Of a stretch of DNA of 39,141 bases, positions 475-32,583 are shown one piece after another. Source of the DNA: an uncultured Erythrobacteraceae bacterium (lineage in GTDB: Bacteria; Pseudomonadota; Alphaproteobacteria; Sphingomonadales; Sphingomonadaceae); the NCBI GenBank assembly GCA_946482075.1, contig CAMLQG010000024.1:1-39141 (forward strand), in the 5' to 3' direction. The notes under the pieces were generated by a model. It was given only the letters and a program-made list of their open reading frames with translations, had not been told where the DNA came from and made no database searches. A program made the translations under genes and the position numbers. How positions within the stretch are numbered: the first letter of the stretch is position 1; each line of letters starts with the position of its first letter.

Positions 475-849
475 TCAAGCCGCGATCGTCGCCGACTTCA
501 CTTCGAAACAGGGAAAGATGCGCAAGGCGGGCCGGTCGAGGAAATGTTCTTCGTCCTCCATGAAGATCCGCCCGATCTCGGGATCGGCCATGATCCGCTG
601 CATCTCCGCCCAGGCGGCTTCGTCCTTCATCCAGATCTCGGTGACGGCATCGTAGTCTGGATTGGCGAGGCCGGGGTTCTGGCCGTCGCTCTGCCCGCCT
701 TCGACCGGCAGCATGTAGTTGCGGCGGTAATCGGCGAAGAGATGGCCGAGATATTTGTGCGCCAGCGCCACATGGCTGCGTTCGTAATATTCCTGGAACG
801 CCTCGGCGCTCATGCCCGCCTTGCGTTTGAGCAGAAGCATGACTTTCAT
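475..849 (-). CDS. EthD-domain small protein (first copy)
   Basis: This 124-residue protein opens with MKVMLLLKRKAGMSAEAFQE, followed by YYERSHVALAHKYL. The pattern of a short strand, the KRK-GMS-F turn, then a helix with an Y-E-x-x-H motif is that of EthD/dimeric alpha-beta barrel proteins. These small ferredoxin-fold proteins are often found in catabolic clusters, and their reactions are mostly unknown; some act as small-ring monooxygenases or cyclases. The start is set at 849, with AAGGAGAGG four bases upstream. A longer frame to 912 has no ribosome binding site. It is clearly paralogous to the protein at 2470-2829 and is divergent from the gene at 967. Confidence 0.8.
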   Translation of the reverse strand: MKVMLLLKRKAGMSAEAFQEYYERSHVALAHKYLGHLFADYRRNYMLPVEGGQSDGQNPGLANPDYDAVTEIWMKDEAAWAEMQRIMADPEIGRIFMEDEEHFLDRPALRIFPCFEVKSATIAA

Positions 850-966: not shown

Positions 967-1977
967 GTGAGCAACGGCGCAGCAGAACATTACATCACAC
1001 GTCCCGTGGCCAAGAGCATGGGCACCTACGATCCGCGCCACGAGGAAATCCATCCGGAATATTGGGCGAAGGAAAAGCATCTCGACCTCAACGAGACGCA
1101 GCAATTCGGCTTCTCCATCCTGGAGGAGGAAATCCACGCGCTCTGCTACACCTGGTTTCACCCGAACTGCAATCTGATCTCCACCGGCGTATTTGTATGC
1201 CAGGGGATTCAGCCCATCGCGCCGGGCCTGGCGATCCAGGACTATCGCGGCTTCGTGAGCGCGGACGAATTGAACGGTACCTTCCTCAAGTACAAGACTT
1301 CCAACGGCTACGAGGTCGAAGTGATCGAGCCGGGCGTGAAGTTCCGCACGAAATATCTCGACAAGGAACGCAACAGCTCGTTCGACATCACCCATACCGC
1401 GATGCACCCGCCCGCCATGTGGTCGAGCAACGTCCATTACGAACAGCCGATGTACAATGTGGGCGAGCTGACGATCCGCGGCAAAAGCTATGACGTGAAC
1501 AGCCGCCAGACCCGCGACCGGTCCTGGGGCGAACTGCGCTCCGAACAGCCGCGCAACATCCCGGCCATGGGCTGGGTCACCGGCACGTTCGACAACAAGT
1601 TCTGCTTCCACGTGACAGCCTTCGATTCCCAGGATCTCGACCCGATCTGGAAGGGAAAGTTCGACGTGCCGCCCGACCAGAACCTGCGCTTCGGCTGGGT
1701 GATCGTGAATGGCGAACAGGCCGCCGTCATCCATTGCCGCAAGCTGACCCGCTATGACAGCGACCTCATGCCTGCGGCCATGGATCTCGAACTCCATGAC
1801 GAGAAAGGCCGCGTGCACACGATCACGGGCACGGTGGTGGCCGGGTTCCCGATGCACCCGTGGAACAATTCCCGCTGGCCGATCTGCCTGACGCAGTGGA
1901 AGCTCAACGGTTCCGTTGACGGCTATGGCGATATCCAGGACGGCCATTGGGGCGATTTCATCCTGGCGGTGCGGTAG
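967..1977 (+). CDS. Conserved protein of the CrtC/AttH-like (DUF7064/DUF7065-type) fold
   Basis: This 336-residue protein has a GTG start, supported by AGGGAGAGG just upstream; the frame is open further upstream but that stretch overlaps the divergent EthD gene. It has no signal peptide or membrane segment. The central motif TRDRSWGELRSEQ and the preceding GELTIRGKSYDV resemble the two-lobed lipocalin-like fold of hydroxyneurosporene hydratase (CrtC) and AttH relatives, where an arginine-aspartate-arginine-serine-tryptophan-glycine stretch is typical. Such proteins occur beside acyl-CoA ligases and dehydrogenases in steroid and terpenoid clusters of sphingomonads and actinobacteria. A water-adding or lipid-binding role is only an inference. 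The neighbouring EthD, thiolase and ligase genes support a catabolic role. Confidence 0.7.
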   Translation: MSNGAAEHYITRPVAKSMGTYDPRHEEIHPEYWAKEKHLDLNETQQFGFSILEEEIHALCYTWFHPNCNLISTGVFVCQGIQPIAPGLAIQDYRGFVSADELNGTFLKYKTSNGYEVEVIEPGVKFRTKYLDKERNSSFDITHTAMHPPAMWSSNVHYEQPMYNVGELTIRGKSYDVNSRQTRDRSWGELRSEQPRNIPAMGWVTGTFDNKFCFHVTAFDSQDLDPIWKGKFDVPPDQNLRFGWVIVNGEQAAVIHCRKLTRYDSDLMPAAMDLELHDEKGRVHTITGTVVAGFPMHPWNNSRWPICLTQWKLNGSVDGYGDIQDGHWGDFILAVR

Positions 1978-2469: not shown

Positions 2470-2829
2470 TCAGAACACCCCGTCCTGCCGCGTCCGCGTA
2501 TCGGCCACGAAGATCTCGACATTGTCGATGTCAAGGAAGCGCTTCTCGTCGTCGCGCACGGCCTGTTCGTTCTTGGGATCTTGCACGGCTTCAGCCGCCG
2601 CGAGCAGGTCTTCCATCGAATCGTAATGGAACTCGGTCACGCAGTCGAAGCTGTTGGGCTTGCCTACCGGAAACGGGTTCTCGCCATCGCTGTAATTGCG
2701 GACATAGGCTTTCAGATAATCGCCCATGATACCGCTCACCAGCGGGACGTGGCTGGTTTCGTAGTGCTTCTTGAAATCCGCGAAGCTCATGCCCGGCTTG
2801 CGCCTCAGGATCGCGATCATCTTCACCAT
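2470..2829 (-). CDS. EthD-domain small protein (second copy)
   Basis: This 119-residue protein begins MVKMIAILRRKPGMSFADFK, followed by KHYETSHVPLVSGIM, the EthD pattern also seen in the protein at 475-849. The two paralogs share the R/KRK-x-GMS turn, the Y-E-x-SHV helix and a Y-x-RNY strand; the C-terminal helices with DDEKRFLDIDNVEIF correspond to EDEEHFLDRPALRIF of the other. The start at 2829 is preceded by GGGAGAG at a seven-base spacing, better than the ATG at 2844. It is divergent from the thiolase gene and probably shares its control region (2830-3008). The catalytic role is unknown. Confidence 0.8.
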   Translation of the reverse strand: MVKMIAILRRKPGMSFADFKKHYETSHVPLVSGIMGDYLKAYVRNYSDGENPFPVGKPNSFDCVTEFHYDSMEDLLAAAEAVQDPKNEQAVRDDEKRFLDIDNVEIFVADTRTRQDGVF

Positions 2830-3008
2830 TTGCAACTCTCCCATTTCGTTCGGCCGTATTTGTTGGCTTTCGCCGCAGCGCTGGCAAGCCCCAGTTTTCG
2901 CCGATTTCCGCCTGGGACAATCTTAACTCTGATTTCCGGTTGCTACGGGCAGCGTTTGATCTACGTTCCGCGCCGCAGTCCAAAACCAGCCCAATGGAGA
3001 GGCGTCCA

Positions 3009-4505
3009 ATGTCGGACAATACGCCCGTTATCGTCGGGGTCGCACAAGTCACCAACCATCGCGGTCACCAACCGGGACCCGAGCCGCTCGATCTCTGGGA
3101 GCAGGCGGTCCGCCTCGCTGCCGACGATGCGGGCATTGCACATTCGGAACTCGCCAAGGCGGACTATGTCGGCACGGCCTATGCGCTCGCCTGGACCTAT
3201 GATGACCAGACCGCCCGCCTGGCCGAGCGCCTGGGCGCCAGCCCGCGCAAGATGGAATGCCCGATGCCCAGCGGCACCACCGGCATAAAGCTGGTCAAGC
3301 ACGCGGCCGAAGCGATCCTGGCCGGCGCCGATATCGCGATCATCGCGGGCGGCGAAGCGATGGCGACACGGAAATACTATGCCAAGAACAACCAGGTGCC
3401 GGACTGGAGCTATCCTGCCCCGCCGAACTTCGCCCATTTCGATCTGCAGGAGCAGCAGCATCCGGGCGAGGCCGCGTCCGGCCTGCTGGGCGGCGTGGGC
3501 GCCGTCTATACTTTCGCGATGCGCGACGTTGCCCGGCGAGCGCATCTCGGCATCAGCCCGGAAGACTATCGCCGCAAGAACGCCGAACTGCTCAGCGGCA
3601 TGACCAAGGTCGCGGCCGGCAATCCCGACGCCTGGTTCCCGCAGGAGAAATCGGTCGATTTCCTGTTCGATATCCGCGAGGATAACCGGCTGATCGCCTA
3701 TCCCTATACCAAGCACAATGTCGCGATCATGGATGTGGACATCGCCGCTGCGCAGATCGTGATGAGCAAGGCCAAGGCCGATGCGCTGGGCGTGCCGGAG
3801 CATAAGCGGATCTATCCCTGGAACAGCTGCTATGCCGACGATCCGGTGTTCACCGCCGTCCGCCCCAACCTCTGGAAATCGCCCGCTATGCACGCGGCGA
3901 GCAAGGCGGTGCTCGAGTCCGCGGGGGTGACGATGGACGAGGTGAATTATGTCGATCTTTACAGCTGCTTCCCGGCAGCGGTGAATTTCGCGCGCGACGC
4001 GCTCGGCATTCCGGACCGGCCGGGCGACCAGATCACCGTCACCGGCGGCCTGCCCTATGCGGGGGGACCCGCGGCAGCCTATGTCTGCACCTCGATTACC
4101 AAGATGGTGGAGAAGATGCGCAACGATGCGGGCTCGGTCGGGCTCGTCAGCGGGCTCGGCATGATGATGAGCAACCACTGCTACGGCCTGTTTTCCGCGC
4201 GTCCGCCGGAGAACGTCAAGCCGATCGACGAGAAGAAGATCCAGGCCGAGCTCGATGCGATCGAAGAACTGCCGGTGCGCACGGATTATGAAGGGCTGTG
4301 CACCATCGCGACCTATACCACGATCCATGACCGCAACGGTGATGCCACAGCCGCCGCGGCGATCGTCGACCTGTTCGACGGCAGCCGCGCCTATGCACGC
4401 ATCCTCGATCCGGACCTGATCAAGGAAGCGCTGGAAACCGAAGTGGTCGGCCGGCGCATGACGATGGTCGAAGCCGGGCCGGCTGGCGAGATCCGGGCCG
4501 CATGA
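3009..4505 (+). CDS. Atypical thiolase (acetyl-CoA acetyltransferase-like)
   Basis: The 498-residue protein begins MSDNTPVIVGVAQVTNHRG, a thiolase N-terminus, and shows thiolase order throughout: AAEAILAGADIAIIAGGEAM near residues 102-121 and VTGGLPYAGGPAAAY plus SGLGMMMSNHCYGLFS in the C-terminal half. The canonical nucleophile motif (CGSG or CATG) is replaced by MECPMPSGTTG at 82-92; Cys84 lies close by but not at the usual place. The C-terminal GHP motif also appears altered to YAGGP. This matches a subgroup of about 500-residue thiolase-like proteins of uncertain chemistry. GGAGAGG precedes the ATG. The convergent acyl-CoA ligase suggests a role in beta-oxidation of a side chain or ring product. 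Confidence 0.8.
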   Translation: MSDNTPVIVGVAQVTNHRGHQPGPEPLDLWEQAVRLAADDAGIAHSELAKADYVGTAYALAWTYDDQTARLAERLGASPRKMECPMPSGTTGIKLVKHAAEAILAGADIAIIAGGEAMATRKYYAKNNQVPDWSYPAPPNFAHFDLQEQQHPGEAASGLLGGVGAVYTFAMRDVARRAHLGISPEDYRRKNAELLSGMTKVAAGNPDAWFPQEKSVDFLFDIREDNRLIAYPYTKHNVAIMDVDIAAAQIVMSKAKADALGVPEHKRIYPWNSCYADDPVFTAVRPNLWKSPAMHAASKAVLESAGVTMDEVNYVDLYSCFPAAVNFARDALGIPDRPGDQITVTGGLPYAGGPAAAYVCTSITKMVEKMRNDAGSVGLVSGLGMMMSNHCYGLFSARPPENVKPIDEKKIQAELDAIEELPVRTDYEGLCTIATYTTIHDRNGDATAAAAIVDLFDGSRAYARILDPDLIKEALETEVVGRRMTMVEAGPAGEIRAA

Positions 4506-4594: not shown

Positions 4595-6223
4595 CTAAGC
4601 CGCTGCCGACCGCCTCGGTTGCCGGGCCAGGTCGGAATCCTGCCGATCCCAGGTCGTCCCGGTGACCCCGGCTTCGCGCAGTTCGATCTTGCGTATCTTG
4701 CCGTTGGGCGTGCGCGGCAGATCCGCCACCCGCTCGTAATAGCGCGGCACTGCGAAATGCGGGATGTTGGCGATGGCCCATTCGCACAGCGTGCGATTGT
4801 CCAGCTCGGCTCCTTCGGACAGGACGTAGGTGACCTTCACTTCGTCCTCCGAGAGTTCGGAAGGGACCGCATGGACGCAGACATCCGCGATTTCGGTCCG
4901 CTGCATGAAAGCGGCGTCCATCTCCATCGAGGAGATGTTCTCGCCGCCCTTGCGCAGGTAATCCTTCTTCCGGTCGACGAAGCTGAAATCGCCATCCTCG
5001 TCGAACTTGCCGATATCGCCAGTATGGAGCCAGAGGTCGTTGAACACTCGCACCGTATCTTCCGGCCGGTTCCAGTATCCGTCGAACATGCCGTGGCGGA
5101 CGAGCGGCCGGATCCAGACTTCACCGGCCACGTCGGGCGGACATTCCTCGCCATTCTCGTCGACGATGCGGACATCGTAATCCTCGAAGCGGCGGCCGCT
5201 GGTGCCTTCCTTCTGCGGTTCGCCGATCTTGTGGCAGACGACGATGCTCGCTTCGGTCTGGCCGAAGCCGGGCGAACCGATGCGCTTCACCCCGAAGCGA
5301 TCGATCCAGGCATCTCTGACATTGGCCGGCAGCGGCGCGCCCATGACCTTGTCCAGCTTGCCGTAGCAGCGCTTCTCCGCCTCGGTCTCCGGCGCGCGCG
5401 CGACCAGCGCCAGCATCGAGCCCATCATGAGGACGAAATTGGCCCCGCCTTTCTCGATCTGGTCCCAGAAGCTGGAGACCGAGAATTTCGGGATGATGTC
5501 CACCGTGGCGCCGACGCGGATGGCGTTGAGCGTCAGCCCGCACATGCCGGTCAGGTGGAAGAGCGGCAGCGGCATCCACACCACGTCGCCCCGTTCCATG
5601 CAATGCGCGCGGACCATCGTGTTGGCATGCTGACAGGCATAGCCGTGGCTGATCATGCAGCCCTTGGAAGGCCCAGTGGTGCCGGAGGTGTAGATCAGCA
5701 TCGAAAGATCGGCCGGACCGATATCGACCTGCGGGCGAGCCGCAGCATCGCCCGGCAGGTCGGCATACTCGATCCGCCGCCAGGGTGCGCCGGCGCCATG
5801 GCTATCGCCGCGTATGACGATGGCTTTTACATCGGGCAGCCCTTCGGCCAGGTCGGCCAAGCGTGCGACATACTCGTCTTCGGCGACAATGATCCTGGCG
5901 CCGCAATCGGCGACCTGGTGGCGCAGGAACTCGCCCAGATAGCTGGTGTTGATCGGCGCGGCAGCCGCCCCCGCCTTCAGGATGCCAAGCCAGAGAATCA
6001 CCGCATCGGCATGGGTGTTGACCATGGTGCAGACGCGATCGCCCTTCTCCACGCCGAGCGCGGCGAGCCCCGCAGCGATCCGGTCGCTCGCGCGATCGAC
6101 CTCCGCGAAAGTGAGCTTGTCCTCCCCCATCGTCTGAAGGAACACGTCGTCGGGCCAATTGGCGACTGCACGCTGCATCGAAGCAACGACGGTGAGCGGC
6201 CCGGCGGGATATCTGAGCATCAT
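4595..6223 (-). CDS. AMP-forming acyl-CoA ligase
   Basis: This 542-residue adenylate-forming enzyme activates a carboxylic acid as acyl-AMP and then as acyl-CoA. Visible motifs in order are the ATP loop YTSGTTGPSKG at 178-188, the GFGQTEAS motif at 319-326, the TGD motif at 401-403, the hinge region DRKKDYLRKGGENIS at 417-431, and PRTPNGKIRKIELR at 503-516 with the expected catalytic lysine at 509. Length fits the class I family. Two adjacent ATG codons (6223, 6220) follow AGGAG; the first is chosen. Its substrate is not predictable; it resembles ligases of carnitine/crotonobetaine and steroid side-chain types. It lies 13 bases downstream of the oxidase subunit genes and probably shares their transcript. 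Confidence 0.9.
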   Translation of the reverse strand: MMLRYPAGPLTVVASMQRAVANWPDDVFLQTMGEDKLTFAEVDRASDRIAAGLAALGVEKGDRVCTMVNTHADAVILWLGILKAGAAAAPINTSYLGEFLRHQVADCGARIIVAEDEYVARLADLAEGLPDVKAIVIRGDSHGAGAPWRRIEYADLPGDAAARPQVDIGPADLSMLIYTSGTTGPSKGCMISHGYACQHANTMVRAHCMERGDVVWMPLPLFHLTGMCGLTLNAIRVGATVDIIPKFSVSSFWDQIEKGGANFVLMMGSMLALVARAPETEAEKRCYGKLDKVMGAPLPANVRDAWIDRFGVKRIGSPGFGQTEASIVVCHKIGEPQKEGTSGRRFEDYDVRIVDENGEECPPDVAGEVWIRPLVRHGMFDGYWNRPEDTVRVFNDLWLHTGDIGKFDEDGDFSFVDRKKDYLRKGGENISSMEMDAAFMQRTEIADVCVHAVPSELSEDEVKVTYVLSEGAELDNRTLCEWAIANIPHFAVPRYYERVADLPRTPNGKIRKIELREAGVTGTTWDRQDSDLARQPRRSAAA

Positions 6224-6236
6224 CCTATCTCCTCTG

Positions 6237-6524
6237 TCAGGACAGCATGCCGCGTTCGCCTAGGACGACCACGGTCATCAGACCGATCGGCGCGAGGACC
6301 GTCCATATCTCGAAGGCGATCCGCAAGCCCAGCGGCGCGTGGTTCACTTCCATGAAATTCTGGATGATCAACCGCGCCTTCACGAAGGCGATCAGCAGCA
6401 GGCCCGCGATCCCCCAATCGCCGTGCACGCCGAGATCCTCGGCATAGACGAACGACCAGATGCTGAGGACCAGGAGGATCAGCCAGATCCGCCCGCCATT
6501 GTTCAACAATTCTTTCATCGTCAT
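6237..6524 (-). CDS. Cytochrome c oxidase subunit IV-like membrane protein
   Basis: The protein has 95 residues and three membrane helices at about 11-28, 36-56 and 70-88. The stretch KARLIIQNFMEVNHAPLGLR between helices two and three matches the bacterial COX4 (caa3/NorF-like) signature, K-x-R-x-x-x-x-x-F-M-E followed by an A-P-L. Such subunits are small accessory parts of heme-copper oxidases or nitric oxide reductases. The ATG at 6524 overlaps the stop of the subunit III gene (ATGA), which shows translational coupling. No catalytic subunit I or copper subunit II is seen within the window. Confidence 0.8.
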   Translation of the reverse strand: MTMKELLNNGGRIWLILLVLSIWSFVYAEDLGVHGDWGIAGLLLIAFVKARLIIQNFMEVNHAPLGLRIAFEIWTVLAPIGLMTVVVLGERGMLS

Positions 6525-7111
6525 CGGGAGAGATACACCACTGCCATGAGGATCACCCACAGGAGGTCCACCATATGCCAGAACACGCCGCCCGCCTCGA
6601 GCGCGAAGACGCGCCCTCTGGACTGCGTGCCATCGGCCGGAAAGCCCGCGCGGATCAGGAACAGCGCAGCCAGGCCGATCAGCACATGGACCAGATGCAG
6701 GATCGTGGTCATGAAATAGAACATGAAGAACTCGTTGGTGTTGACCGTGATGCCGACCGAGAACTTCTGGTTGTACTCGATCACCTTCATGCCCACGAAG
6801 CCGAGCCCGCACAGGATCGCGAACAGGATGAAGCGCCTGGCTGCGACCCAGCGCCACATGCGGGCCGCCTGGACGCCGACGAACACAAAGTAGGAACTCG
6901 TCAGCAGCAGCAGCGTGTTGATCAACGCGATCGGCTGGTTCAGCTGCGTCTGGGAGGTGGCGTACAACTCAGGATTGAAGCTGCGGTAATAAAAGACCGT
7001 GCCGAACATGATCGAGAAGATCGTGAGGTCGGCCAGGATTGCCATCCATAGGCCGACCTCTTGATAGATGTTCGTCGGTTCGTTGGTACTTGCCGAACTC
7101 TCTTCACTCAC
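6521..7111 (-). CDS. Cytochrome c oxidase subunit III family protein (five-helix, NorE-like)
   Basis: This 196-residue protein has five predicted membrane helices (about 22-42, 60-82, 93-111, 127-153, 176-195). It therefore lacks the first two helices of classical seven-helix subunit III, as in NorE-type proteins. Family motifs are visible: MKVIEY near 108-113, LHLVHVLIG at 139-146 with the two histidines, and FWHMVDLLWV at 178-186. The GTG start overlaps the stop of the upstream gene (GTGA), and its own stop overlaps the subunit IV start. An ATG start inside the frame would cut into the first helix. Subunit III normally stabilises the catalytic core; here its partner is not encoded nearby. 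Confidence 0.85.
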   Translation of the reverse strand: MSEESSASTNEPTNIYQEVGLWMAILADLTIFSIMFGTVFYYRSFNPELYATSQTQLNQPIALINTLLLLTSSYFVFVGVQAARMWRWVAARRFILFAILCGLGFVGMKVIEYNQKFSVGITVNTNEFFMFYFMTTILHLVHVLIGLAALFLIRAGFPADGTQSRGRVFALEAGGVFWHMVDLLWVILMAVVYLSR

Positions 7112-7830
7112 AGCGCGGCCTCTTGCCTCTTGATGTGCTTCCACACGAGGTAGAGCGTGCTGAAGATGAAGGCGCTGAAGTCGACCAGCGGCAGGTAGAA
7201 GGCGAAGAGCCCATCCCAGGCGAACGGGCCGTCGAGGAAGAACTCGCAGCCCACGCCGCCCAGGAAGAGCACGAAGGCCCAGGCGCAGAGATAGCCGTAC
7301 CAGCGCGGGAAGATCGGCGTCGGGCTGCGATCCTGGAACGCGGCGATCGCCAGCGTGACATACATCGGCAGCGTCGGCGGCACGAGCAGGATGAAGGACA
7401 GCCACACGAGATCGTGGAACATCAGGAACGTGTTCGGATCATAGGCTTCCGTGCGGAACGCGAGCAGTTCCCACAGGAGCGAAGACACGCCCAGCAGCAG
7501 GAAGGTCGAGAACTGGCTGGCGAAGGTGGTGATCGAAAGGACCCCGAACTTGCCTTCGATCTCCGCCACCAGCTGCCCCAGATAGGCCGCGAAGACATAG
7601 CCGAAGGCGATCGCGAACATCATCATCAGGAAGCCGATGCGGATGTTCATCTGGTTTTCCAGGAAGATCGCTTTCACCGCATCCGCGCTCAACGTCGGAT
7701 CGGGCGGCGGGAACATGCCCGCGACCATGATGAAACCGTTCCCGAACAGCATGAGATAGACGACCGCACACCACCAGGCGATCTTCTGATTGGTGATCTG
7801 CGCCCGTGGCGAGATACCCCCGTTTGCCAT
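7108..7830 (-). CDS. Unrecognised six-helix membrane protein of an oxidase-associated cluster
   Basis: I do not recognise this 240-residue protein as a named family. It has six hydrophobic segments at about 17-39, 62-86, 97-118, 135-165, 177-198 and 205-231, and a charged C-terminus (KHIKRQEAAL). Acidic residues Glu121, Glu196 and Asp217 and His139 lie in or near membrane segments. A loop at 39-60 rich in proline and aspartate is probably outside the membrane or between helices. The start at 7830 is supported by AGGAGGGG five bases upstream. It is first in a coupled set with subunits III and IV, so it may stand in for a membrane partner of those subunits. No heme-ligand set of subunit I (six histidines) is present. 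Confidence 0.75.
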   Translation of the reverse strand: MANGGISPRAQITNQKIAWWCAVVYLMLFGNGFIMVAGMFPPPDPTLSADAVKAIFLENQMNIRIGFLMMMFAIAFGYVFAAYLGQLVAEIEGKFGVLSITTFASQFSTFLLLGVSSLLWELLAFRTEAYDPNTFLMFHDLVWLSFILLVPPTLPMYVTLAIAAFQDRSPTPIFPRWYGYLCAWAFVLFLGGVGCEFFLDGPFAWDGLFAFYLPLVDFSAFIFSTLYLVWKHIKRQEAAL

Positions 7831-7929
7831 AATCCCCTCCTCCTCTGACCGAAATTTTCGGACTGCTGCTTGCACCCGAATTGAATAGATTTGTCCACCC
7901 CCTAAGGGCAGCAAATTAATCCAGCTGCA

Positions 7930-8238
7930 TCAGGGCGAGTACGGGGTCTTCGCCATCACCACAACCGTCTCCTTGTGGACCAGGTCCGGCAGGTCGGCGA
8001 GCAGCACATGGGCTTTCGGATCGGCCGCGCAGGCTTCCATGCCCTTGGCGATATCGTCGAACTTCTCGATTTCCCACAGATGGGTGATTTCCGTGATGTC
8101 GCCCACCACCGGCCCGAGACCGAAAATCAGCTTCCAGCCATGCTGCGCCATATACGGCGCGAAAGCCGTCATCAGGTCGGAATAGCCCTGATACTTCCCC
8201 ATCTTCAACGCAACGGTCGTGCGAATGTAGTATGCCAT
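7930..8238 (-). CDS. NIPSNAP-like small protein
   Basis: This 102-residue protein starts MAYYIRTTVALKMGKYQGY and continues with a helix, then GLGPVVGDITEITHLWEIE, a strand-turn-strand ending with the HLWE motif typical of NIPSNAP and related dimeric alpha-beta barrel proteins. Members are found beside catabolic enzymes and have no agreed reaction. An AGAGG lies ten bases before the ATG, which is a long spacing. It lies 99 bases upstream of the membrane set and on the same strand. It is the third ferredoxin-fold protein in the cluster, besides the two EthD proteins. Confidence 0.7.
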   Translation of the reverse strand: MAYYIRTTVALKMGKYQGYSDLMTAFAPYMAQHGWKLIFGLGPVVGDITEITHLWEIEKFDDIAKGMEACAADPKAHVLLADLPDLVHKETVVVMAKTPYSP

Positions 8239-8344: not shown

Positions 8345-8366
8345 GTGCGGCGTTCTCTTGCCGCAC
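8345..8366 (-). terminator. Probable intrinsic terminator of secA
   Basis: On the minus strand GTGCGGC pairs with GCCGCAC around an eight-base loop, 22 bases after the secA stop, and is followed by the pyrimidine-rich TCTTCTC. The stem is short but fits a terminator that separates secA from the downstream cluster. Confidence 0.55.
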
Positions 8367-8387: not shown

Positions 8388-11180
<2,793 letters not shown>

Positions 11181-14119: not shown

Positions 14120-17100
14120 TCAGAAGGTAAAGCTTTCCTGTGCTTCCTGTAATGCAGGCTTGTGGATTTCGAGCAGGTCCCCCGGCACTTCGATCAGGCG
14201 CGGCGCCTGGGTGTAGAGCAGCGCGACCGCGACGGTGCGCCCCGGATAGATCACGCCGAGCGCTGCCGCATAGGCTCCCATCTGGCGCAGGGTGGAATGC
14301 GGAACTTCGGCCAAGTCCGTCGGCGGGCGGCGCGCGGACTTGAAGTCGACCACCAGGACCCGGTCCGGCGTGATGAGCAGCCGGTCGATAGTGCCTGCGA
14401 TGACACGTCCTGCCACTGTGGCCGCGAGCGGGACTTCGGCCAGCGCATCGGCGGAGAAGATATCGGCCCAATCGGGATTATCGAGCACCGCGAGCGCGGA
14501 GGAAGCGATCTCCATCCGCGCCCCTTCCCCAAGTTCCGCTCCATTGCGGGCGAGCCAGTCCGTGGCGGCAGACGCGCGAGCTTCCGGCGGCAGTTCGGGC
14601 AGGCGTTCCAGCAGGCGATGGATCAGCACGCCGCGACGGGCGGCTTCGTGCAGGGCAGCCGCCGGCATCGGCGGATCGGCGCCCATGTCCTCCCCCGCTG
14701 CGGACGGCGCCAGCGGGCGCGGCGGCCTGGGTTCAGGTCCGATCGGCAGCTGCGCCCAAGCGGGGATATCCAGCGTAACTTCCTGCGCGCCGCTCTCCAC
14801 CGCGCGCGCCGCGCTTTCGGCCCGGCGTCCCCATTCGCGGCGCTCGCCCCACAGGTCATCGGCCAGTCCATCCTCGGCGAACAGCGCTGCAAGTTGCGCA
14901 TACCAGCTCTCCGCCGCCGGCTGCGTCTCGCGCAGGCCGAGAGAGCCACCGATGAACAAGGCCTCCTCCGCCCGCGTCATCGCGACATAGAGCAGCCGCC
15001 AATGTTCCTCCCGCTCTTCCGCGGCGGTCCGTACCTGCGCCTCGTCGATGCGCCCGAAACGTTCTTCCTTGCGCAGCGGCGGCAAGGGAAGCGTTCGCGC
15101 GCCGAACAGCGCATCGAGGCCTTCGGGAACCGGTTCGGTCAAGGAGATGCCACGCACCGGCGAACTGTCCGGATCTCCTGCCGCGTCGGCCAGGATCACG
15201 ATCGGCGCCTGCAATCCCTTCGATCCATGAACCGTCATCACGCGAACCAAACCTTCGCCCGCACCGGCTTCGCGCTTCAACTCGCCCTCGCCCGCATCGA
15301 ACCATTGCACGAAACCCTGCAGGCTCGGCGCGTGGGAAGTGGCGTAGGCATGCGCGGCGTTCAGCAATTCGTCGATCGGATCGTTCGCTTCCCGGCCCAG
15401 TCGCGCGATCAGCTTGCGGCGGCCCTGCCACGGCCCGGTCAGCATCCAGTGCAATAACGGTTGCGGCGGTTCGAAATCCGCGCGGGCGAGCAGTTCGAAC
15501 AGCATGGCGAGCGCTTGCGCCACTTCGGGTTCGCCTGCCCGGCGCTGGAGATGATCCCACAGCTTCGCCTTCCGATCGCGATAGGCATGTGCGAGCAGTT
15601 GTTCCTGGCTCCATCCGATCAGCGGCGAAACCAGCAGATTGGCGAGGTTGAGATCGTCGAAAGGCTGTACTGCGAAGCGCAAGCCGGCCATCAGGTCCTT
15701 GACCGCGAGCGGAGCGCCGAGACGCAGGCGGTCCACCCCCGCCACGGGCACGCCTGCCGCATACAGGCGGGCAACGATCAGCCCCGCCAGTTCCTTGCGC
15801 TTGCGCACCAGCACCATCACGTCACCGGGCCCAGCAAGCCGTTCACCGCCCTTTACCAGCGGAAAACCGATATCCATCCAGCGCCGAATCTGGCGGGCGA
15901 TGCGATCCGCCAGTTCGCGATCGGGTCGGGAGAAACCGCCATCCTCGTCCTCGTCGCCCAGTTCCTCGGGCAGGCCCTGCGCGTCGATCGGCCGCCACAG
16001 CGTGACGAGACCGGGCCGCTCCTCTCCCACATGCCGTTCGGGTTCGTCCTCCAAACCGAAGCGGAGATGGCCGATCCCCCGGATCGCGGCGTCGACGAAA
16101 TCCAGCACCGGCTGCGCCGTTCGGTAGGACCGGTCGAGACCGAGATCCTGCAGATCGCGCCATTCGCGTCCCCCGCGATAAGAAGAGCCCCCTGCCGCTC
16201 CGGCGATCTGATCCTTCACCCGTTGACGGGCCAGCTTGAAATTCTCCGGACTGGTGCCCTGGAACCGGAAGATCGCCTGCTTGTAATCGCCTACCACGAA
16301 CAACGTCCGCAGCTTCTCGTCATGCTGGCCGGCGCCGGCGAAGAAATCCCCGGTCAGCGCATCGATAATCTGCCATTGCGCCTCGTTGGTGTCCTGCGCT
16401 TCATCCACCAGGATGTGATCGAAACGCCGGTCGAGCTTGTAGCGAATCCATTCCGCCAGTTCGTTTCGGCGCAGCAGATCCGCCGCGCGGCGAATCTGGT
16501 CATCGAAATCGATCAACCCTTCGCGCTCCTTCGCCTCCTCCCACGCGATGGCGAATTCCCGGCCGAGTTCCATCGCCGGCGCAAGCCATTCGGAAAGAGC
16601 CAGCATCGCGCGCAATTCGAGAACGCGTGCCAGGCTGTCGGCCACCCGCGCGACATAGCCTGGATATTCCGCATCGATCTTTTCCTGCGAAGCGGATGCC
16701 CGCAGCTTGCCTTCGGCGGTGTGGAAGACCTGATGCAGATCCGCCAGCAGGGCGGACCTTTCTTCGACCGGAGCGGAAAGCCAGGCTGCGATCCGTTCCG
16801 CATTGCCCTGTCCCGTCGCCGCCGGCCACGCCTGGTTGATCTCCATGCAACGGCGCAGAGAAGCGACATCGAAAGCTTGATCAGTGCACAGCGCCAGGAG
16901 GTCATCCGCGCTCGCTTCGGCATCCAGCCCGAGCAGACGATTGATGCGCGGAAGCAAGGGCGGCGTCCAGGCGCCGGGTCCGAACCAGGCCTCGCGCGCA
17001 TCGGCACAGCGCATCAGCCAGTTTTCCACGCCATCCGGGCCCAGCCTCAGGCTCAGCGCGGCGAGTGTATCGAGCAACCGCTCGTCTCCGCGCGCTTCCG

Positions 17101-28205: not shown

Positions 28206-28697
28206 CTATTCCTTGGCGTCTTCCATCTTCTCCGGCGTGACCTTGGCGTCCGCCTTCTCGGCCCGCTTGCGGCGCTCGAACACCGACTTCATGTACTGGA
28301 GATCCGCCTCGTCGAGATATTTCCCGAACATGGGAAAGACTTCATCTTCCTCCTCGTCGATATGATGGAGGAAGTCGTGGCGCAGATGCTTGAACTTCGC
28401 CAGCCAGGACGGGCTCGACATATCGGTTGCAGCGAGATCGTTCAGCATTTCCTCGATCTCGTAGTGTTCGGACACCGAATGGCGCGTTTCGTCCGTCGTC
28501 TTGGGCTTGCGCATCATCGTGGAATAAAGCGCCTGCTCTTCAGCCGCAGCATGGCTCTTCGCTTCCAGTGTGAACTGCTCGAACATTTCCCGCCGCTCAG
28601 GCGTATCGCCATGGGTCTTGGCGAGCTTGCGAAGCATCTGGCGATGGCGGTCATGATCCTCGATCAGCCGCCCGAAGATATCGGTCGTCTCGGACAT
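28206..28697 (-). CDS. Hemerythrin HHE-domain protein
   Basis: This 163-residue protein has helices with the iron-ligand pattern of hemerythrin-like HHE domains: EDHDRHRQML, SHAAAEEQALY, SVSEHYEIEEML and HDFLHHIDEEEDEVFPMF. Such proteins bind a di-iron centre and are linked to oxygen, nitric oxide or oxidative-stress responses, often as part of the general stress response. The C-terminal 25 residues (RRKRAEKADAKVTPEK) are charged and probably disordered. AAGGAG precedes the ATG. An EcfG-type promoter lies 29 bases upstream of the start, which supports stress control. Translation upstream of 28697 in the same frame is not family-like and was not used. Confidence 0.88.
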   Translation of the reverse strand: MSETTDIFGRLIEDHDRHRQMLRKLAKTHGDTPERREMFEQFTLEAKSHAAAEEQALYSTMMRKPKTTDETRHSVSEHYEIEEMLNDLAATDMSSPSWLAKFKHLRHDFLHHIDEEEDEVFPMFGKYLDEADLQYMKSVFERRKRAEKADAKVTPEKMEDAKE

Positions 28698-28725
28698 GGG
28701 AGCTCCTTTCGTACCTTCGGGAAAG

Positions 28726-28750
28726 AACGGGCGACCGCCTGCCGGGTTCC
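28726..28750 (-). promoter_or_regulatory. EcfG-type general stress promoter for the hemerythrin-domain gene
   Basis: On the minus strand GGAAC (28750-28746) is followed after exactly 16 bases by CGTT (28729-28726). This is the consensus of promoters read by the extracytoplasmic sigma factor EcfG in alphaproteobacteria. The CGTT lies 28 bases before the ATG, leaving a short leader with the AAGGAG site. Identification is by pattern only. Confidence 0.7.
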
Positions 28751-28851
28751 TTGCCGTCCCGGCAATCGAGAACGGGCTGGAAATCAGGCCAATTACCGGC
28801 CACCTTCGTCCAGTCAGCACAGTTGAAAGTGTGGTTGAAGGAGAGAAAGCG

Positions 28852-29634
28852 ATGGGACGGGTAGCGGGCAAGGTCGCAATGATCACTGGTGCGGGCGGCG
28901 GGCTGGGCAAGGCCTGCATGGAACTTTTCGCCCGCGAGGGCGCAAGCGTGGTGGGCATCGGGCGGACGCAGCGATCGCTTGAAGAGGCTGTCGCGGCGGT
29001 GGAATCCCAAGGCGGTACGGCCGCCGCGATCGCGGCGGATCTTTCCGACGCAGCGGCCGCCACGCGCGCTGTCGCTGAAACGGTCGATCGCTTCGGGCGG
29101 CTCGACATCCTGATCCACTCCGCCGCCGTCGGCTATAGCTGGGAGGAGAAGAGTCCCGGCAGCATGCGCGCGGTCGATGCAATCCCGCCGGACAAATGGC
29201 GCGAAGTGATGGGCCTCAATCTCGACGCTGCCTTCCTGATCGCACAGGCGGCCATCGGCCAGATGCAACAGCAGAGCGGCGGATCGATCGTCTTCGTCGG
29301 CAGCGCGGCCGCCTTGCGCGGCGTGCCGGATGCCCATGCCTATGCCGTGGCCAAGGCGGGCGTGCACAATCTCGCGAAGCAGCTTGCGGTCACCTATGTG
29401 AAGGATGGCATCCGCACCAATTGCCTGTCGGCCGGGCCGATCGACACGCCGATGACGGCCAATCTCAAGGAATTGTTCGCCAATCCCGCCACGGCGCAGA
29501 TGCTGTCGCCTATGGGGCGTGTGGGAACGCCGCTGGAGATGGCGCATGGTTGCCTCTATCTCGCTTCAGACGAGGCGTCCTACACTAACGGTGCGATCCT
29601 GGAGATCGATGGCGGGCTGGCCGCGCGGCTCTGA
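28852..29634 (+). CDS. Short-chain dehydrogenase/reductase
   Basis: The 260-residue protein is a classical NAD(P)-dependent oxidoreductase. The cofactor loop TGAGGGLG is at 12-19, the catalytic serine at 151 (VGSAAALRG), and the YAVAK motif gives Tyr164 and Lys168. The usual NNAG strand reads IHSAA here. An acidic residue after the second strand is not obvious (VVGIGRTQRS), which leans toward NADPH. The C-terminus GAILEIDGGLAARL is standard. AAGGAGAG precedes the ATG. Its substrate is unknown; it is convergent with, and three bases from, the dioxygenase-like gene, so both may serve one lipid or steroid pathway. Confidence 0.92.
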   Translation: MGRVAGKVAMITGAGGGLGKACMELFAREGASVVGIGRTQRSLEEAVAAVESQGGTAAAIAADLSDAAAATRAVAETVDRFGRLDILIHSAAVGYSWEEKSPGSMRAVDAIPPDKWREVMGLNLDAAFLIAQAAIGQMQQQSGGSIVFVGSAAALRGVPDAHAYAVAKAGVHNLAKQLAVTYVKDGIRTNCLSAGPIDTPMTANLKELFANPATAQMLSPMGRVGTPLEMAHGCLYLASDEASYTNGAILEIDGGLAARL

Positions 29635-29637
29635 TTC

Positions 29638-30495
29638 TCAGCGGACCTTCCCGATCGTCGGGCTTTCATGCACGGCCTGACCCGGCTTTAGATCCGTAAC
29701 CATGCCGGTGAAGGCGCGCACCACCTCGTCATCCACATTGGAGGATGCCGCCTCGATCGCCAGGTCCATCTGGCGCGGGATGCGACGCACGTCCTCCCCG
29801 ATGAACCGCAGCGAGGAGGTCCGCCGCCGGTCGCCGGGCTTCAGCGGTGCGCCGCCATGCAGGATGTTGTGGTGAAAGACGACGATGTCGCCCGGTTCCA
29901 CCGCCCAGGAGACGATGTCGAAATCCTCGCGATGCGCTTCGATATCCGGCAGCGGCGGCAGGATTCCTTCGGCGTAGAAGCCGGCCGTGTCGTCATCCGC
30001 ATCGTAGCGCGATCCGTTATAGATCGGTCCCTTGTGCGATCCACGAACGAATTCGAGCGTGTTGTCCCGCGATACGGGCTCGAAATTGATCCAGACCGAA
30101 GCCGATTTCGTTCCTTCATAGGGAATGTATGACTGGTCCTGGTGCCAGGCTGTCCGCCTGCTCGCCATGCCTTCCTTCAGGAAGATCTGCTCGTAGAAGA
30201 ACCAGACATTCGGATCTTTCCACAACGAGCCCACGATATCGGGGATGATCGAACGTGTGCAGAAATCGAGATAGAACGGCCAGTTCCTGACATTCCCGCC
30301 ATCCTGATAGAACCGGACGCCCTGCTCCTGATAGAAGTTCCGCTGCGCCGGGCCGGGATGGGCATAGGTGTATTCGAACGTCTCCAGCACCATCGCCAGT
30401 TGATCGGCATCCAGCGCCCGCCGCAGGCAGACAACGCCATCTCGGTCATATTCATCAGCCAAATGGCTGTAATCGACAGCCGCCACGCCCTGCAT
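29638..30495 (-). CDS. Phytanoyl-CoA dioxygenase family protein
   Basis: The 285-residue protein has the iron(II)/2-oxoglutarate jelly-roll signature. The HxD pair is His118-x-Asp120 in TAWHQDQSYIPYEG, and the distal histidine is His213 in FHHNILHGGAP; an arginine for 2-oxoglutarate follows in the GDRRRTSSLRF stretch. FEPVSRDNTLEFVRGSHKGP matches the core strands of PhyH enzymes, which hydroxylate branched-chain acyl-CoA or many secondary substrates. GGAG lies upstream of the ATG. Its substrate is not predictable from sequence. Confidence 0.9.
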   Translation of the reverse strand: MQGVAAVDYSHLADEYDRDGVVCLRRALDADQLAMVLETFEYTYAHPGPAQRNFYQEQGVRFYQDGGNVRNWPFYLDFCTRSIIPDIVGSLWKDPNVWFFYEQIFLKEGMASRRTAWHQDQSYIPYEGTKSASVWINFEPVSRDNTLEFVRGSHKGPIYNGSRYDADDDTAGFYAEGILPPLPDIEAHREDFDIVSWAVEPGDIVVFHHNILHGGAPLKPGDRRRTSSLRFIGEDVRRIPRQMDLAIEAASSNVDDEVVRAFTGMVTDLKPGQAVHESPTIGKVR

Positions 30496-30561
30496 CGCTC
30501 ACTCCACGATTGTCTTTTGGAGTGAACCTATGCCTCGGAGTGCCAGGCAACAAGAGCAAAG

Positions 30562-30596
30562 AAAAAGGCCGGGATCACGAGGACCCCGGCCTTTTT
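30562..30596. terminator. Intrinsic terminator with A and T flanks
   Basis: AAAAAGGCCGGG (30562-30573) pairs with CCCGGCCTTTTT around an eleven-base loop, and a T run follows on the plus strand. On the minus strand it also ends in T, so it can stop the thioesterase transcript before the dioxygenase gene. Confidence 0.85.
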
Positions 30597-30908
30597 TCAT
30601 CCACAAGGGAAGAAATGGCGCCCCGCGCCGGATAAACATAACGAATATGTTTCGCCGTTCGTACTACTTTAGGACCGTCGAACGTCGCCCCTAACCGCCC
30701 ATTTCTGCCGGCACTTACCCGAGAGCGCTACTATGGAGAGTTCGGGCGATTCCTAAAGGGAGCGTTGGGGCGATAGTCGATGAAATCCGTTTATCGCACG
30801 TTTCGCCAAATCAAGCGCATCAGTCGGGCCGGCGCCGGAATCGACCTCCGATCCCTGGACCGAACTCCGGCCCATCGTACTCGCGGTTCTTTTCACGCGG
30901 CGTCCGAA
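30597..30908 (+). other. Gene-free interval with a possible truncated gene start at 30780
   Basis: From 30780 a plus-strand frame reads MKSVYRTFRQIKRISRAGAG and continues for about 43 codons before running antisense into the thioesterase 3' end at 30909. It is preceded by a purine-rich AAAGGGAG and a block containing TTCCTAAAGG. The part before 30908 looks like a real N-terminus, while the rest is composed of antisense residues. I infer a gene broken by recombination; no other gene is seen in this interval. Confidence 0.3.
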
Positions 30909-31301
30909 TCAGCTTTTTGCCATGAAACGCGCTGCGGCGTCGGCGGGGATCGGGATCAGCCTGCGGCTCTCCGCATCAACGCAGCACCAGCAGGACCGCG
31001 CCTCCACAAGCGGCGTGCAACCGCGCGCGATCACCGTCTCATACCATGCGCGGGCGCGACGGATTTCGACGATTCGGGTTTGTACGTCGAGGTGATCATC
31101 GACATGGGCCGGCCGACGATAGTCGATCTCGTGCCGCACCGCGACCCAGAGATAAGCGGCAAACTCCGATGGCGTCGCAAGCGCGCTCCAGTGGGCGTGA
31201 ACCGCCTCCTCGATCCAGCGCAGATAGACGCTGTTGTTGACGTGCCCCATACGATCGATGTCGGCGGCCGCAACTTGGACGCCGAGACTGTGTGACGACA
31301 T
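30909..31301 (-). CDS. Acyl-CoA thioesterase of the 4HBT hotdog family
   Basis: This 130-residue single-hotdog protein has the signature DIDRMGHVNNSVYLRWIEE, where Asp16 and His20-Val-Asn-Asn form the classical 4-hydroxybenzoyl-CoA thioesterase type of active site. VRHEIDYRRPAHVDDHLDV gives the next strands. Such enzymes hydrolyse short or medium acyl-CoA or acyl-ACP. The ATG at 31301 fits the family. The best Shine-Dalgarno (GGAGG) lies 17 bases upstream in the loop of a 10-base-pair hairpin, listed separately, which would bring it close to the start only when folded. The open frame extends to 31802 but that part is antisense to the desaturase. Confidence 0.85.
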   Translation of the reverse strand: MSSHSLGVQVAAADIDRMGHVNNSVYLRWIEEAVHAHWSALATPSEFAAYLWVAVRHEIDYRRPAHVDDHLDVQTRIVEIRRARAWYETVIARGCTPLVEARSCWCCVDAESRRLIPIPADAAARFMAKS

Positions 31302-31303
31302 GG

Positions 31304-31332
31304 CGCACCCGTGATTTTCCTCCACGGGTGCG
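31304..31332 (-). promoter_or_regulatory. Leader hairpin holding the thioesterase ribosome binding site in its loop
   Basis: On the minus strand CGCACCCGTG pairs perfectly with CACGGGTGCG, and the nine-base loop between them is GAGGAAAAT. The 3' arm ends two bases before the ATG. Folded, the stem would remove ten of the 17 bases separating the Shine-Dalgarno from the start. This is a clear structural feature; its use in control of translation is inferred. Confidence 0.65.
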
Positions 31333-31416
31333 AACACGGAACGGCCGTTTCGGTTTCCGCTGTGAGTCATTGCGACTGAACTCCAGCAAGCGAAAGCGTG
31401 GCCTCTCGATGGTTCG

Positions 31417-32583
31417 TCACTTGGCGAGTGAAGCGGAAGCGGCAAGGTGCCTGCCGACCGCAGCCAGGAGCAGTTCATGGGCGCCGTCGACGATCTCGTC
31501 GAGCGAAGGCGTCCTGGCGAACATGGTCCTCGCCTGCGTCGCCAGTTCGGCGCGGGATGGCATATGCGGCAGATGGAGGCTGGATAATGTATCGGCGGCA
31601 TGCTGGCCCGCATGATTGAGTGCATCCCGCAATGCGGGAAGCTCCGACGGGTGCAGCGTGGTGGCGATCGTGGATGCGATCCGTTCGGGACGAAAGCGTG
31701 CCGCGAGTTGCTCGGCGGTCCGCCGGACGATTCGCGCGCCGAGCCTTTGCTCGTTGCGCAGCAATCGCGCCGGCGGCGCCTTGAGGTTCCGAACGATGCC
31801 AAGGCCTGCGAGCAGCTTCAGGACATAATAGCTGGCGTCGACCTCCCACCAACGGAACCCCTGCCGGGCGCTGCTCGGATAGGCATGGTGGTTGTTGTGC
31901 CAGCCTTCGCCCATCGTCAGCAGCGCGAGCACCAGGTTGTTGCAGGAATCATCTCCGGTCACATAGCGCCGACCGCCCCGCACATGCGCGAGCGAATTGA
32001 TGCAGAAGGTGGCGTGATAGACGAGCACTGTGCTCCACAGGAACCCCACTACCAGGCCGGACCATCCACCAATCAGGAAGCAGGCGGCCGCAAGCAAGAG
32101 TGCGGGCACGATCTCGAACCTGTGGAGCCAGCGGAGCTCGGGATAGCGCGCCAGGTCGGGAACCTGACCGAGATCGGTCGCGTCGTGCCGACGCGCGAAC
32201 AGCCATCCTACATGGCTGTAGAGAAAGCCGGTATGGCGCGGCGAATGGACATCGCACGGGGTGTCGGAATAGCGATGGTGGTGGCGATGCTTGGCCGCCC
32301 ACCACAGCACGCTCTTCTGCGCGGTGCTTTGGGCCAGGAATGCGAGAACGAACTGAAAGACCCTGCCGGTCGCGAATGCCCGATGCGAGAAATAGCGGTG
32401 ATAGCCGGCGGTGACTGCGAACATGCGCAGCCAATAGAGGCTCACGCAGAGCGCGACCGCAGCCCAGGTGATCCCGGTCCAGATCGCCGCGAAGCAGCCG
32501 AGATGCACGAGGAGGAAGGGAATGGCAGACGGATAGGCGATATCGCCGCCAGCGGCTGCATCGGGGGCGTGATCGGGGGTCAT
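31417..32583 (-). CDS. Membrane fatty acid (acyl-CoA) desaturase with a C-terminal extension
   Basis: The 388-residue protein shows the three histidine boxes of a delta-9-type di-iron desaturase: HRYFSH at 62-67, HRHHH at 99-103 and HNNHH at 229-233, with hydrophobic segments at about 20-58, 73-90 and 157-190. These enzymes introduce a double bond into acyl chains and help keep membranes fluid in the cold. Residues from about 270 to 388 form a helical, alanine-rich extension beyond the catalytic core. The gene sits directly downstream of cspA. Its leader overlaps the cspA terminator. Confidence 0.9.
   Translation of the reverse strand: MTPDHAPDAAAGGDIAYPSAIPFLLVHLGCFAAIWTGITWAAVALCVSLYWLRMFAVTAGYHRYFSHRAFATGRVFQFVLAFLAQSTAQKSVLWWAAKHRHHHRYSDTPCDVHSPRHTGFLYSHVGWLFARRHDATDLGQVPDLARYPELRWLHRFEIVPALLLAAACFLIGGWSGLVVGFLWSTVLVYHATFCINSLAHVRGGRRYVTGDDSCNNLVLALLTMGEGWHNNHHAYPSSARQGFRWWEVDASYYVLKLLAGLGIVRNLKAPPARLLRNEQRLGARIVRRTAEQLAARFRPERIASTIATTLHPSELPALRDALNHAGQHAADTLSSLHLPHMPSRAELATQARTMFARTPSLDEIVDGAHELLLAAVGRHLAASASLAK

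Follow-up and report, generated by a model that had tools for sequence, protein, structure and literature searches.

Apart from the locus described here, COX3 and COX4 proteins are, to our knowledge, known only as companions of heme-copper oxidases, where they are subunits III and IV (CtaE and CtaF), and of nitric oxide (NO) reductases, where NorE and NorF are accessory to NorCB. We analysed a stretch of 39,141 nucleotides (hereafter the window), contig CAMLQG010000024.1 of the uncultured Erythrobacteraceae bacterium assembly GCA_946482075.1, that carries a COX3/COX4 pair in different company. Three overlapping genes on its minus strand encode a 240-residue membrane protein, a COX3-like protein and a COX4-like protein; a NIPSNAP gene precedes this trio and an acyl-CoA ligase gene follows it (Table 1). 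Gene context and a phylogenetic profile show that the 240-residue protein and its relatives (the 240-family) form, with a NorE/NorF-type COX3/COX4 pair, one conserved unit that is independent of COX1 and NO reductase, and that Actinomycetota and Proteobacteria carry it on plasmids and in catabolic islands. Within the window, the GTG start of the COX3-like gene overlaps the TGA of the 240-residue gene in a GTGA junction and the COX4-like gene overlaps the COX3-like gene in an ATGA junction, just as a first-pass annotation of this DNA had described. Its reading of the three products as a six-helix protein, a subunit III and a subunit IV-like protein agrees with hydropathy, whose segments merge into about six transmembrane (TM) stretches, and with Pfam, which also supports the two flanking genes it had named. 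Pfam scans of 29 window sequences, a part of the open reading frames (ORFs) present, found neither COX1 nor COX2, in keeping with its statement that subunits I and II are missing from the window.

Compared with the described systems, the trio pair stands nearest to NorE/NorF. In a tree of 80 COX3 sequences, built by FastTree as the one method with a midpoint root and three NorE sequences, the trio sequences group with NorE, apart from CtaE- and CyoC-like proteins. The two systems share a COX3-COX4 gene pair, a five-helix COX3 and a lysine, K101, that is common to 37/37 trio COX3 and to four sequences on the NorE side (one from Azoarcus and the three NorE); the six CtaE-like sequences in the comparison carry Q there. 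At position 20, 36 trio sequences have D, as against E on the NorE side. Likeness to CtaE/CtaF lies in the PF00510 and PF03626 families and in E104, H131, H134, H171 and D174; among the hallmark residues of subunit III, these and W170 are present in all 37 trio COX3, save H171 (36/37). The difference from both systems lies in the partners. Pairs in nor clusters sit with NorQ and NorD, plus a NorB-like subunit in two of three plasmids read, whereas the trio pair sits with a 240-family protein, and 20/22 genomes that carry the 240-family gave no NO-reductase-like subunit. The two that have one encode ORFs of 844 and 816 residues at ~30% identity. Nine other genomes gave weak matches in this search, six of which coincide with COX1-family matches of 382–397 bits, as against 255–261 bits for two NorB proteins; since their COX1-family scores exceed the NorB scores, these six look like oxidase subunits, while the other three fall outside the COX1 search. 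From CtaE, the trio COX3 differs in its separate tree branch and in having no COX1 within 20 kb, as detailed below.

The association of the pair with the 240-family was first seen in 81 loci and the window, where COX3 adjoins COX4 in 32/32 cases and a 240-family gene lies within three genes in 31/32. Because these loci had been chosen through the 240-family, three further tests were made, on whole genomes, on plasmids and on a profile across 199 genomes. The whole-genome test used two sets of 16 genomes, both chosen for having the 240-family, with COX1 searched in 13/16 and 11/16 of them. In the first set, 41/69 COX3 genes have a 240-family gene no more than 2.5 kb away; among those in genomes searched for COX1, none (0/37) has COX1 within 20 kb, and all 15 COX3 genes near COX1 are free of a 240-family gene within 15 kb. 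The second set gave 30/57 COX3 genes near the 240-family, none of the 22 testable ones near COX1, and 14 COX3 genes near COX1 that have no 240-family gene within 2.5 kb. Across both sets, 59/59 testable COX3 genes near the 240-family lack COX1 within 20 kb and 29/29 COX1-linked COX3 genes lack the 240-family within 2.5 kb, so that the separation from subunit I envisaged in the first-pass annotation is borne out. A further 9 and 7 COX3 genes of the COX1-searched genomes, actinobacterial CtaE included, are near neither.

The counts for the first set exclude six second PF00510 stretches, one of which (in G003:C34) could be a tandem COX3 in its own right, and include two 240-family places added from the 199-genome family search. 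Those for the second set leave aside four second stretches, together with some short pieces of the 240-family (that of genome G203 included), and cover 16 of 22 genomes, the other six having had no 240-family search. At the level of genomes, COX3 occurs within 2.5 kb of a 240-family gene in 16/16 of the first set and 12/16 of the second, and 31/32 have trio-type COX3 either there or elsewhere. Three genomes (G004, G018 and G172) have 240-family genes, yet only a separated COX3-COX4 pair, and G203 has a single COX3, of the full-length oxidase type by score, besides a 240-family fragment. Pairs apart from any 240-family gene in the stretch fetched were likewise found in loci L135–L137 and L139–L143, with the 240-family elsewhere in those genomes.

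In the plasmid test, the COX3-like protein was used alone as the query, and its ten best matches are all plasmids that carry the 240-family. Seventeen of the 18 plasmids with the 240-family fall among the best 60 of 336 COX3 matches; the 18.7 kb retrieved from the eighteenth contain no COX3. The eleventh match, a plasmid of Azoarcus missed by the 240-residue query, carries a 240-family gene ~460 bases past COX4 and on its strand, and its COX3 is on the NorE side of the tree. The profile test covered 199 genomes of Sphingomonadaceae, the family that includes Novosphingobium lentum, which itself has six COX3 genes of the trio type. The 240-family was found in 10/199, one of them with a 58-residue fragment; in some genomes scoring covered part of the candidates, and members may be missed. 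The COX3-like search reached at least 92 bits in nine genomes, all with the 240-family, and at best 62 bits elsewhere, the dividing score having been set once this gap was visible. Nine genomes thus have both, one the 240-family fragment only, none the trio-type COX3 alone and 189 neither (p = 9e-15).

Overlapping genes, co-occurrence and correlated divergence together suggest that the proteins of the trio physically associate. Distances between paired 240-family and COX3 sequences correlate with a Mantel r of 0.717 over 37 pairs, a value that still includes species kinship; one 240-family gene was kept per COX3, and COX3 stretches of <120 residues and 240-family stretches of <190 residues were dropped from the tree input. 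The trio label appears in many places of the 240-family tree, less scattered than random, with 20 changes where shuffled labels gave 34 on average and never fewer than 28. This distribution fits a pair that serves several 240-family proteins, which is not to claim a proof. No natural fusion of a 240-family protein with COX3 was found among the ORFs of the 81 loci and the window. In Sphingobium cloacae (L086), a further COX4-like gene with no COX3 beside it lies at 15096–15377, ~4.5 kb from the trio.

The 240-family is large. A protein search with the 240-residue query returned 42 relatives, and a profile search at least 385 clusters at E ≤ 1e-10; among 120 of these that were listed, the names are unnamed or hypothetical protein, save a few automatic labels. 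A scan of one genome per species confirmed 255 stretches, the best 80 of which were kept and make up 76 loci. Their hosts are mycobacteria, Nocardioides, Pseudonocardia, Aldersonia, relatives of Solimonas and Nevskia, Halieaceae, Spongiibacter, Zhongshania, Acidocella, a betaproteobacterial metagenome-assembled genome (MAG) and sphingomonads. Matches per genome number 49 in Mycolicibacterium rhodesiae JS60 (G012), 28 in Mycobacterium triplex (G006), 21 in Pseudonocardia eucalypti and 15 in a Hydrocarboniphaga MAG. The copies of G012 and G006 mostly have no Pfam family over cut-off and frequently form tandem groups of two or three (L009, L010, L012 and L031). Some copies appear damaged in the record: on a plasmid of Rhodococcus koreensis (L104, 9947–10727), 240-family matches follow COX3-COX4 in three reading frames, and in genome G021 (contig C370, 7671–9446) two copies are each represented by a pair of half-length matches, through either gene splitting or faulty sequencing.

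Conserved residues of the family include P41, P45, R126, D140, W143, D167, P175, R176, W177 and the motif GPFAWNG (201–207). Lysine and arginine counts favour the cytoplasmic side for loops 89–98 and 165–178 of the 240-residue protein, and on that topology R126, D140 and GPFAWNG would lie on the outer face. No histidine is well conserved, the best column reaching 25% of 103 sequences; a heme pocket, which the first-pass annotation had proposed to look for, is therefore unlikely. On sequence profiles, the 240-family is a distant, mostly sub-threshold relative of DUF4386 (PF14329). Eight of 103 members match this model at E ≤ 0.1, with alignments that span most of it, and 3/8 matches in the genomes searched exceed the curated cut-off. 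The likeness is thus a near end-to-end profile alignment with some members, whereas most score under the cut-off or not at all, and the window protein, below that cut-off, gives no match. It also lies below every other Pfam and NCBIfam cut-off and has no meaningful sequence match in the PDB, where the family profile finds no relative at E ≤ 10. Profile comparisons for homology to COX3, COX4, the AveC-like group or two other neighbouring membrane proteins were negative. The EXPERA/EBP sterol-isomerase model is reached by two isolated 240-family sequences, P0094 (5.3e-6) and a member of alignment A6 (2e-6).

Catabolic genes surround the family. Neighbour counts, those for the 81 loci and the window and the enrichment below included, rest on a simple gene caller written for the analysis. 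Two counts of direct neighbours gave TetR regulators in 31/148 and 16/75 cases, flavin amine-oxidase/CrtI-like proteins in 15 and 18 and AveC-like proteins in 7 and 3; acyl-CoA ligases and dehydrogenases are also among them. Enrichment was measured in the 57 genome loci, out of 76, that span at least 16.5 kb (among L006–L081) against 20 control stretches from six genomes that are home to 15 of the test loci. CrtI-like group A occurs near the 240-family in 23/57 loci versus 0/20 controls (p 0.0002), AveC-like genes in 18/57 versus 0/20 (p 0.002) and P450 genes in 14/57 versus 0/20 (p 0.009); short-chain dehydrogenases/reductases (SDR; 25/57 versus 3/20) and one TetR group (22/57 versus 2/20) have p <0.02, all values uncorrected. 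On annotated plasmids, Mce, TonB, epoxide hydrolase, P450 and ring-hydroxylating dioxygenase genes lie near trios. A plasmid of Streptomyces sp. NBC_00080 (L083, 1–9729) carries a lone 240-family gene (8983–9729) after the annotated mycofactocin genes mftR, mftG and mftA–mftF and a hydroxylase/flavin reductase pair, and mftR is annotated near the L004 trio too. A mycofactocin link was rejected: MftC is over cut-off in 15/30 genomes, all 15 of them actinobacterial.

The setting in lipophilic catabolism, the lack of a conserved histidine and the many paralogues point to a role in the handling of lipophilic substrates. We give a probability of about 0.4 to the reading that the trio is the core of a non-oxidase inner-membrane complex that handles such substrates in the membrane for catabolism. 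The COX3/COX4 pair would then be a reused scaffold that packs against the heme subunit in oxidases and, here, against the 240-family protein; in many-copy genomes, it would be shared by several interchangeable 240-family subunits, with one catabolic cluster to each subunit. On weaker grounds, the 240-family subunit, itself lacking a redox cofactor, might take lipophilic compounds of isoprenoid or steroid type in the membrane and hand them over to the enzymes encoded next to it, namely flavin desaturases, P450s, acyl-CoA ligases and dehydrogenases. A modular class of complexes, in which COX3/COX4 would be the shared base for a large family of interchangeable DUF4386-like subunits that each fit one lipophilic-substrate pathway, falls a little short of even odds.

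Several observations weigh against a complex that handles lipophilic substrates. The first-pass annotation had proposed to check whether the 240-residue protein is always found next to subunits III and IV, and it is not: in the 81 loci and the window, 128/169 240-family genes have no COX3 within two genes, so that many of these proteins may work alone. After correction for 16 tests, only the CrtI-like and AveC-like enrichments hold and that of P450 is lost. Acyl-CoA dehydrogenase, ligase, thiolase, enoyl-CoA hydratase and a second flavoprotein group are not significantly enriched in the 57 loci over the 20 controls, and the enrichment models favour the test loci because they were built from them. 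Rhamnose, polyketide and hydroxyphenylpropionate genes lie near some plasmid copies, and since the neighbours vary so widely, a general membrane or stress role is possible. The steroid core marker KshA_C is over cut-off in 4/10 240-family genomes, one of them with a short piece, versus 35/189 others (p = 0.11), commoner but non-significant, and a link to steroid core degradation is not claimed. Of the stand-alone complex tied to lipid or steroid oxidation that had been proposed at first, the separation from oxidases, the place in catabolic clusters and the distinctive 240-residue protein are supported, and the steroid link is non-significant. One cysteine column (column 18) reaches 54% of sequences, with alanine in the window protein. 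Finally, six-TM proteins with residues conserved in loops could equally be transporters or electron-transfer anchors.

A conserved unit that retains COX3 and COX4 but lacks the heme subunit would give these folds a role outside respiration and would inform the open question of the function of subunit III; on the modular reading, respiratory side-subunits would have been rebuilt into a non-respiratory machine for handling substrates. The unit would also give a testable handle on a six-helix family that has dozens of copies in some environmental actinobacteria and occurs in proteobacterial degraders as well. We rate the unit as outside the known kinds, because the defining subunits of both related systems, COX1 and NorB, were looked for and did not accompany it; its parts belong to known or half-known folds. 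In the titles and abstract openings of open-licence papers that a literature search covered, no such unit is described, and DUF4386 is not mentioned.

An electron-transfer anchor is the alternative that survives best, although we consider it unlikely. The trio would dock flavin dehydrogenases (CrtI-like proteins, acyl-CoA dehydrogenase) to the membrane, and a quinone site in the 240-family protein would be the route by which their electrons reach quinone. The CrtI-like group is the most significantly enriched neighbour, and 20/28 of its proteins adjoin a 240-family gene; the group includes an amine-oxidase-domain protein, and GxGxxG stands near the start of 24/28. The COX3 and COX4 folds derive from respiratory complexes, and aromatic and charged residues of the 240-family are conserved near predicted helix ends. 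However, just 7/28 CrtI-like proteins lie within three genes of COX3/COX4, the Pfam scan found no flavoenzyme next to the window trio, no histidine column exceeds 25%, and the cysteine of the 54% column is missing from the window protein.

Somewhat less likely again is a membrane enzyme that needs no cofactor, with the 240-family protein as an isomerase, hydratase or cyclase of polycyclic lipids and COX3/COX4 in a stabilising part. EXPERA/EBP sterol isomerases and AveC-like spirocyclases are membrane proteins linked to lipophilic ring compounds; we presume a likeness to Pyr4 as well. Up to 49 paralogues per genome would fit a diversification of substrates, AveC-like genes are enriched nearby, and P0094 is over the EBP cut-off. 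Yet profile similarity to AveC-like proteins is nil, and EBP matches are confined to isolated 240-family sequences: one of 103 at E ≤ 0.1, to which P0094 may be closely related (59% to L009). The conserved residues, mostly in loops and at helix ends, fit folding or assembly better than catalysis.

A transporter for the uptake or efflux of hydrophobic compounds or their acids is improbable. A six-TM protein with many paralogues would suit this role, Mce genes lie near the trios of L002 and L084, and 6/7 members of a small TonB-receptor group are within three genes of COX3/COX4. On the other hand, the Mce cluster of L084 brings its own permease genes, no transporter family matches the window protein over cut-off or is common to more than 8/103 members even at E ≤ 0.1, and the need for COX3/COX4 would be left unexplained. 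Least probable of all are accessory or assembly factors for a housekeeping cytochrome oxidase or NO reductase encoded elsewhere, after the manner of NorE/NorF: the tree position and K101 speak for them, but COX1 is present in 30/30 240-family genomes searched and is assumed across the 199, only nine of which have trio-type COX3. The lack of COX1 within 20 kb (0/59 testable) and of an NO-reductase-like subunit in all but 2/22 genomes also led us to reject both forms.

Table 1. Features of the window at and around the trio
Feature	Position	Strand	Evidence or remark
Six-helix 240-residue membrane protein (240-family), divergent relative of DUF4386	7108..7830	-	ORF, hydropathy
COX3-like protein, 196 residues, five-helix, NorE-type	6521..7111	-	PF00510 2.4e-9, tree with NorE
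COX4-like protein (COX4_pro), 95 residues, in NorF position	6237..6524	-	PF03626 1.7e-11
NIPSNAP-domain protein, first gene of the set	7930..8238	-	PF07978 5.1e-7
Acyl-CoA ligase (AMP-binding), after the COX4-like gene	4595..6223	-	Pfam
Thiolase-like protein with TLP1 additional C-terminal domain, same catabolic cluster	2964..4505	+	Opposite strand to trio
First EthD-domain protein, same cluster	2470..2844	-	4.6e-16
Second EthD-domain protein	475..843	-	1.1e-16
DUF7064 protein, cluster edge	1018..1977	+	Pfam
Terminator-like hairpin between SecA-like gene and NIPSNAP gene	8345..8366	-	Pattern match only

Among titled records, the closest relative of the locus is L006, from an Erythrobacteraceae MAG, whose 240-residue protein is 82% identical to that of the window. 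NIPSNAP lies just upstream of its trio and the ligase just downstream, followed by the thiolase-like gene, a second ligase and one EthD gene. Homologues of the NIPSNAP protein (63% identity), the acyl-CoA ligase (74%) and the thiolase-like protein (71%, likewise on the strand opposite to the trio) are all present. The first EthD protein has a 76% identical homologue in L006, and the sole match of the second, at 38%, is to that same gene. L006 contains no DUF7064 homologue; such homologues occur in eight loci fetched through the 240-family or its COX3 pair (L005, L011, L025, L046, L060, L072, L074 and L137).

The hairpin ahead of the NIPSNAP gene is weak, four such patterns having been found in the region against 2.8 expected; the gene upstream of it we take, from reading its ORF, to be SecA-like. 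Farther along the window, at 28206–32583, lie genes for hemerythrin, phytanoyl-CoA dioxygenase-like, thioesterase and fatty acid desaturase-like proteins.

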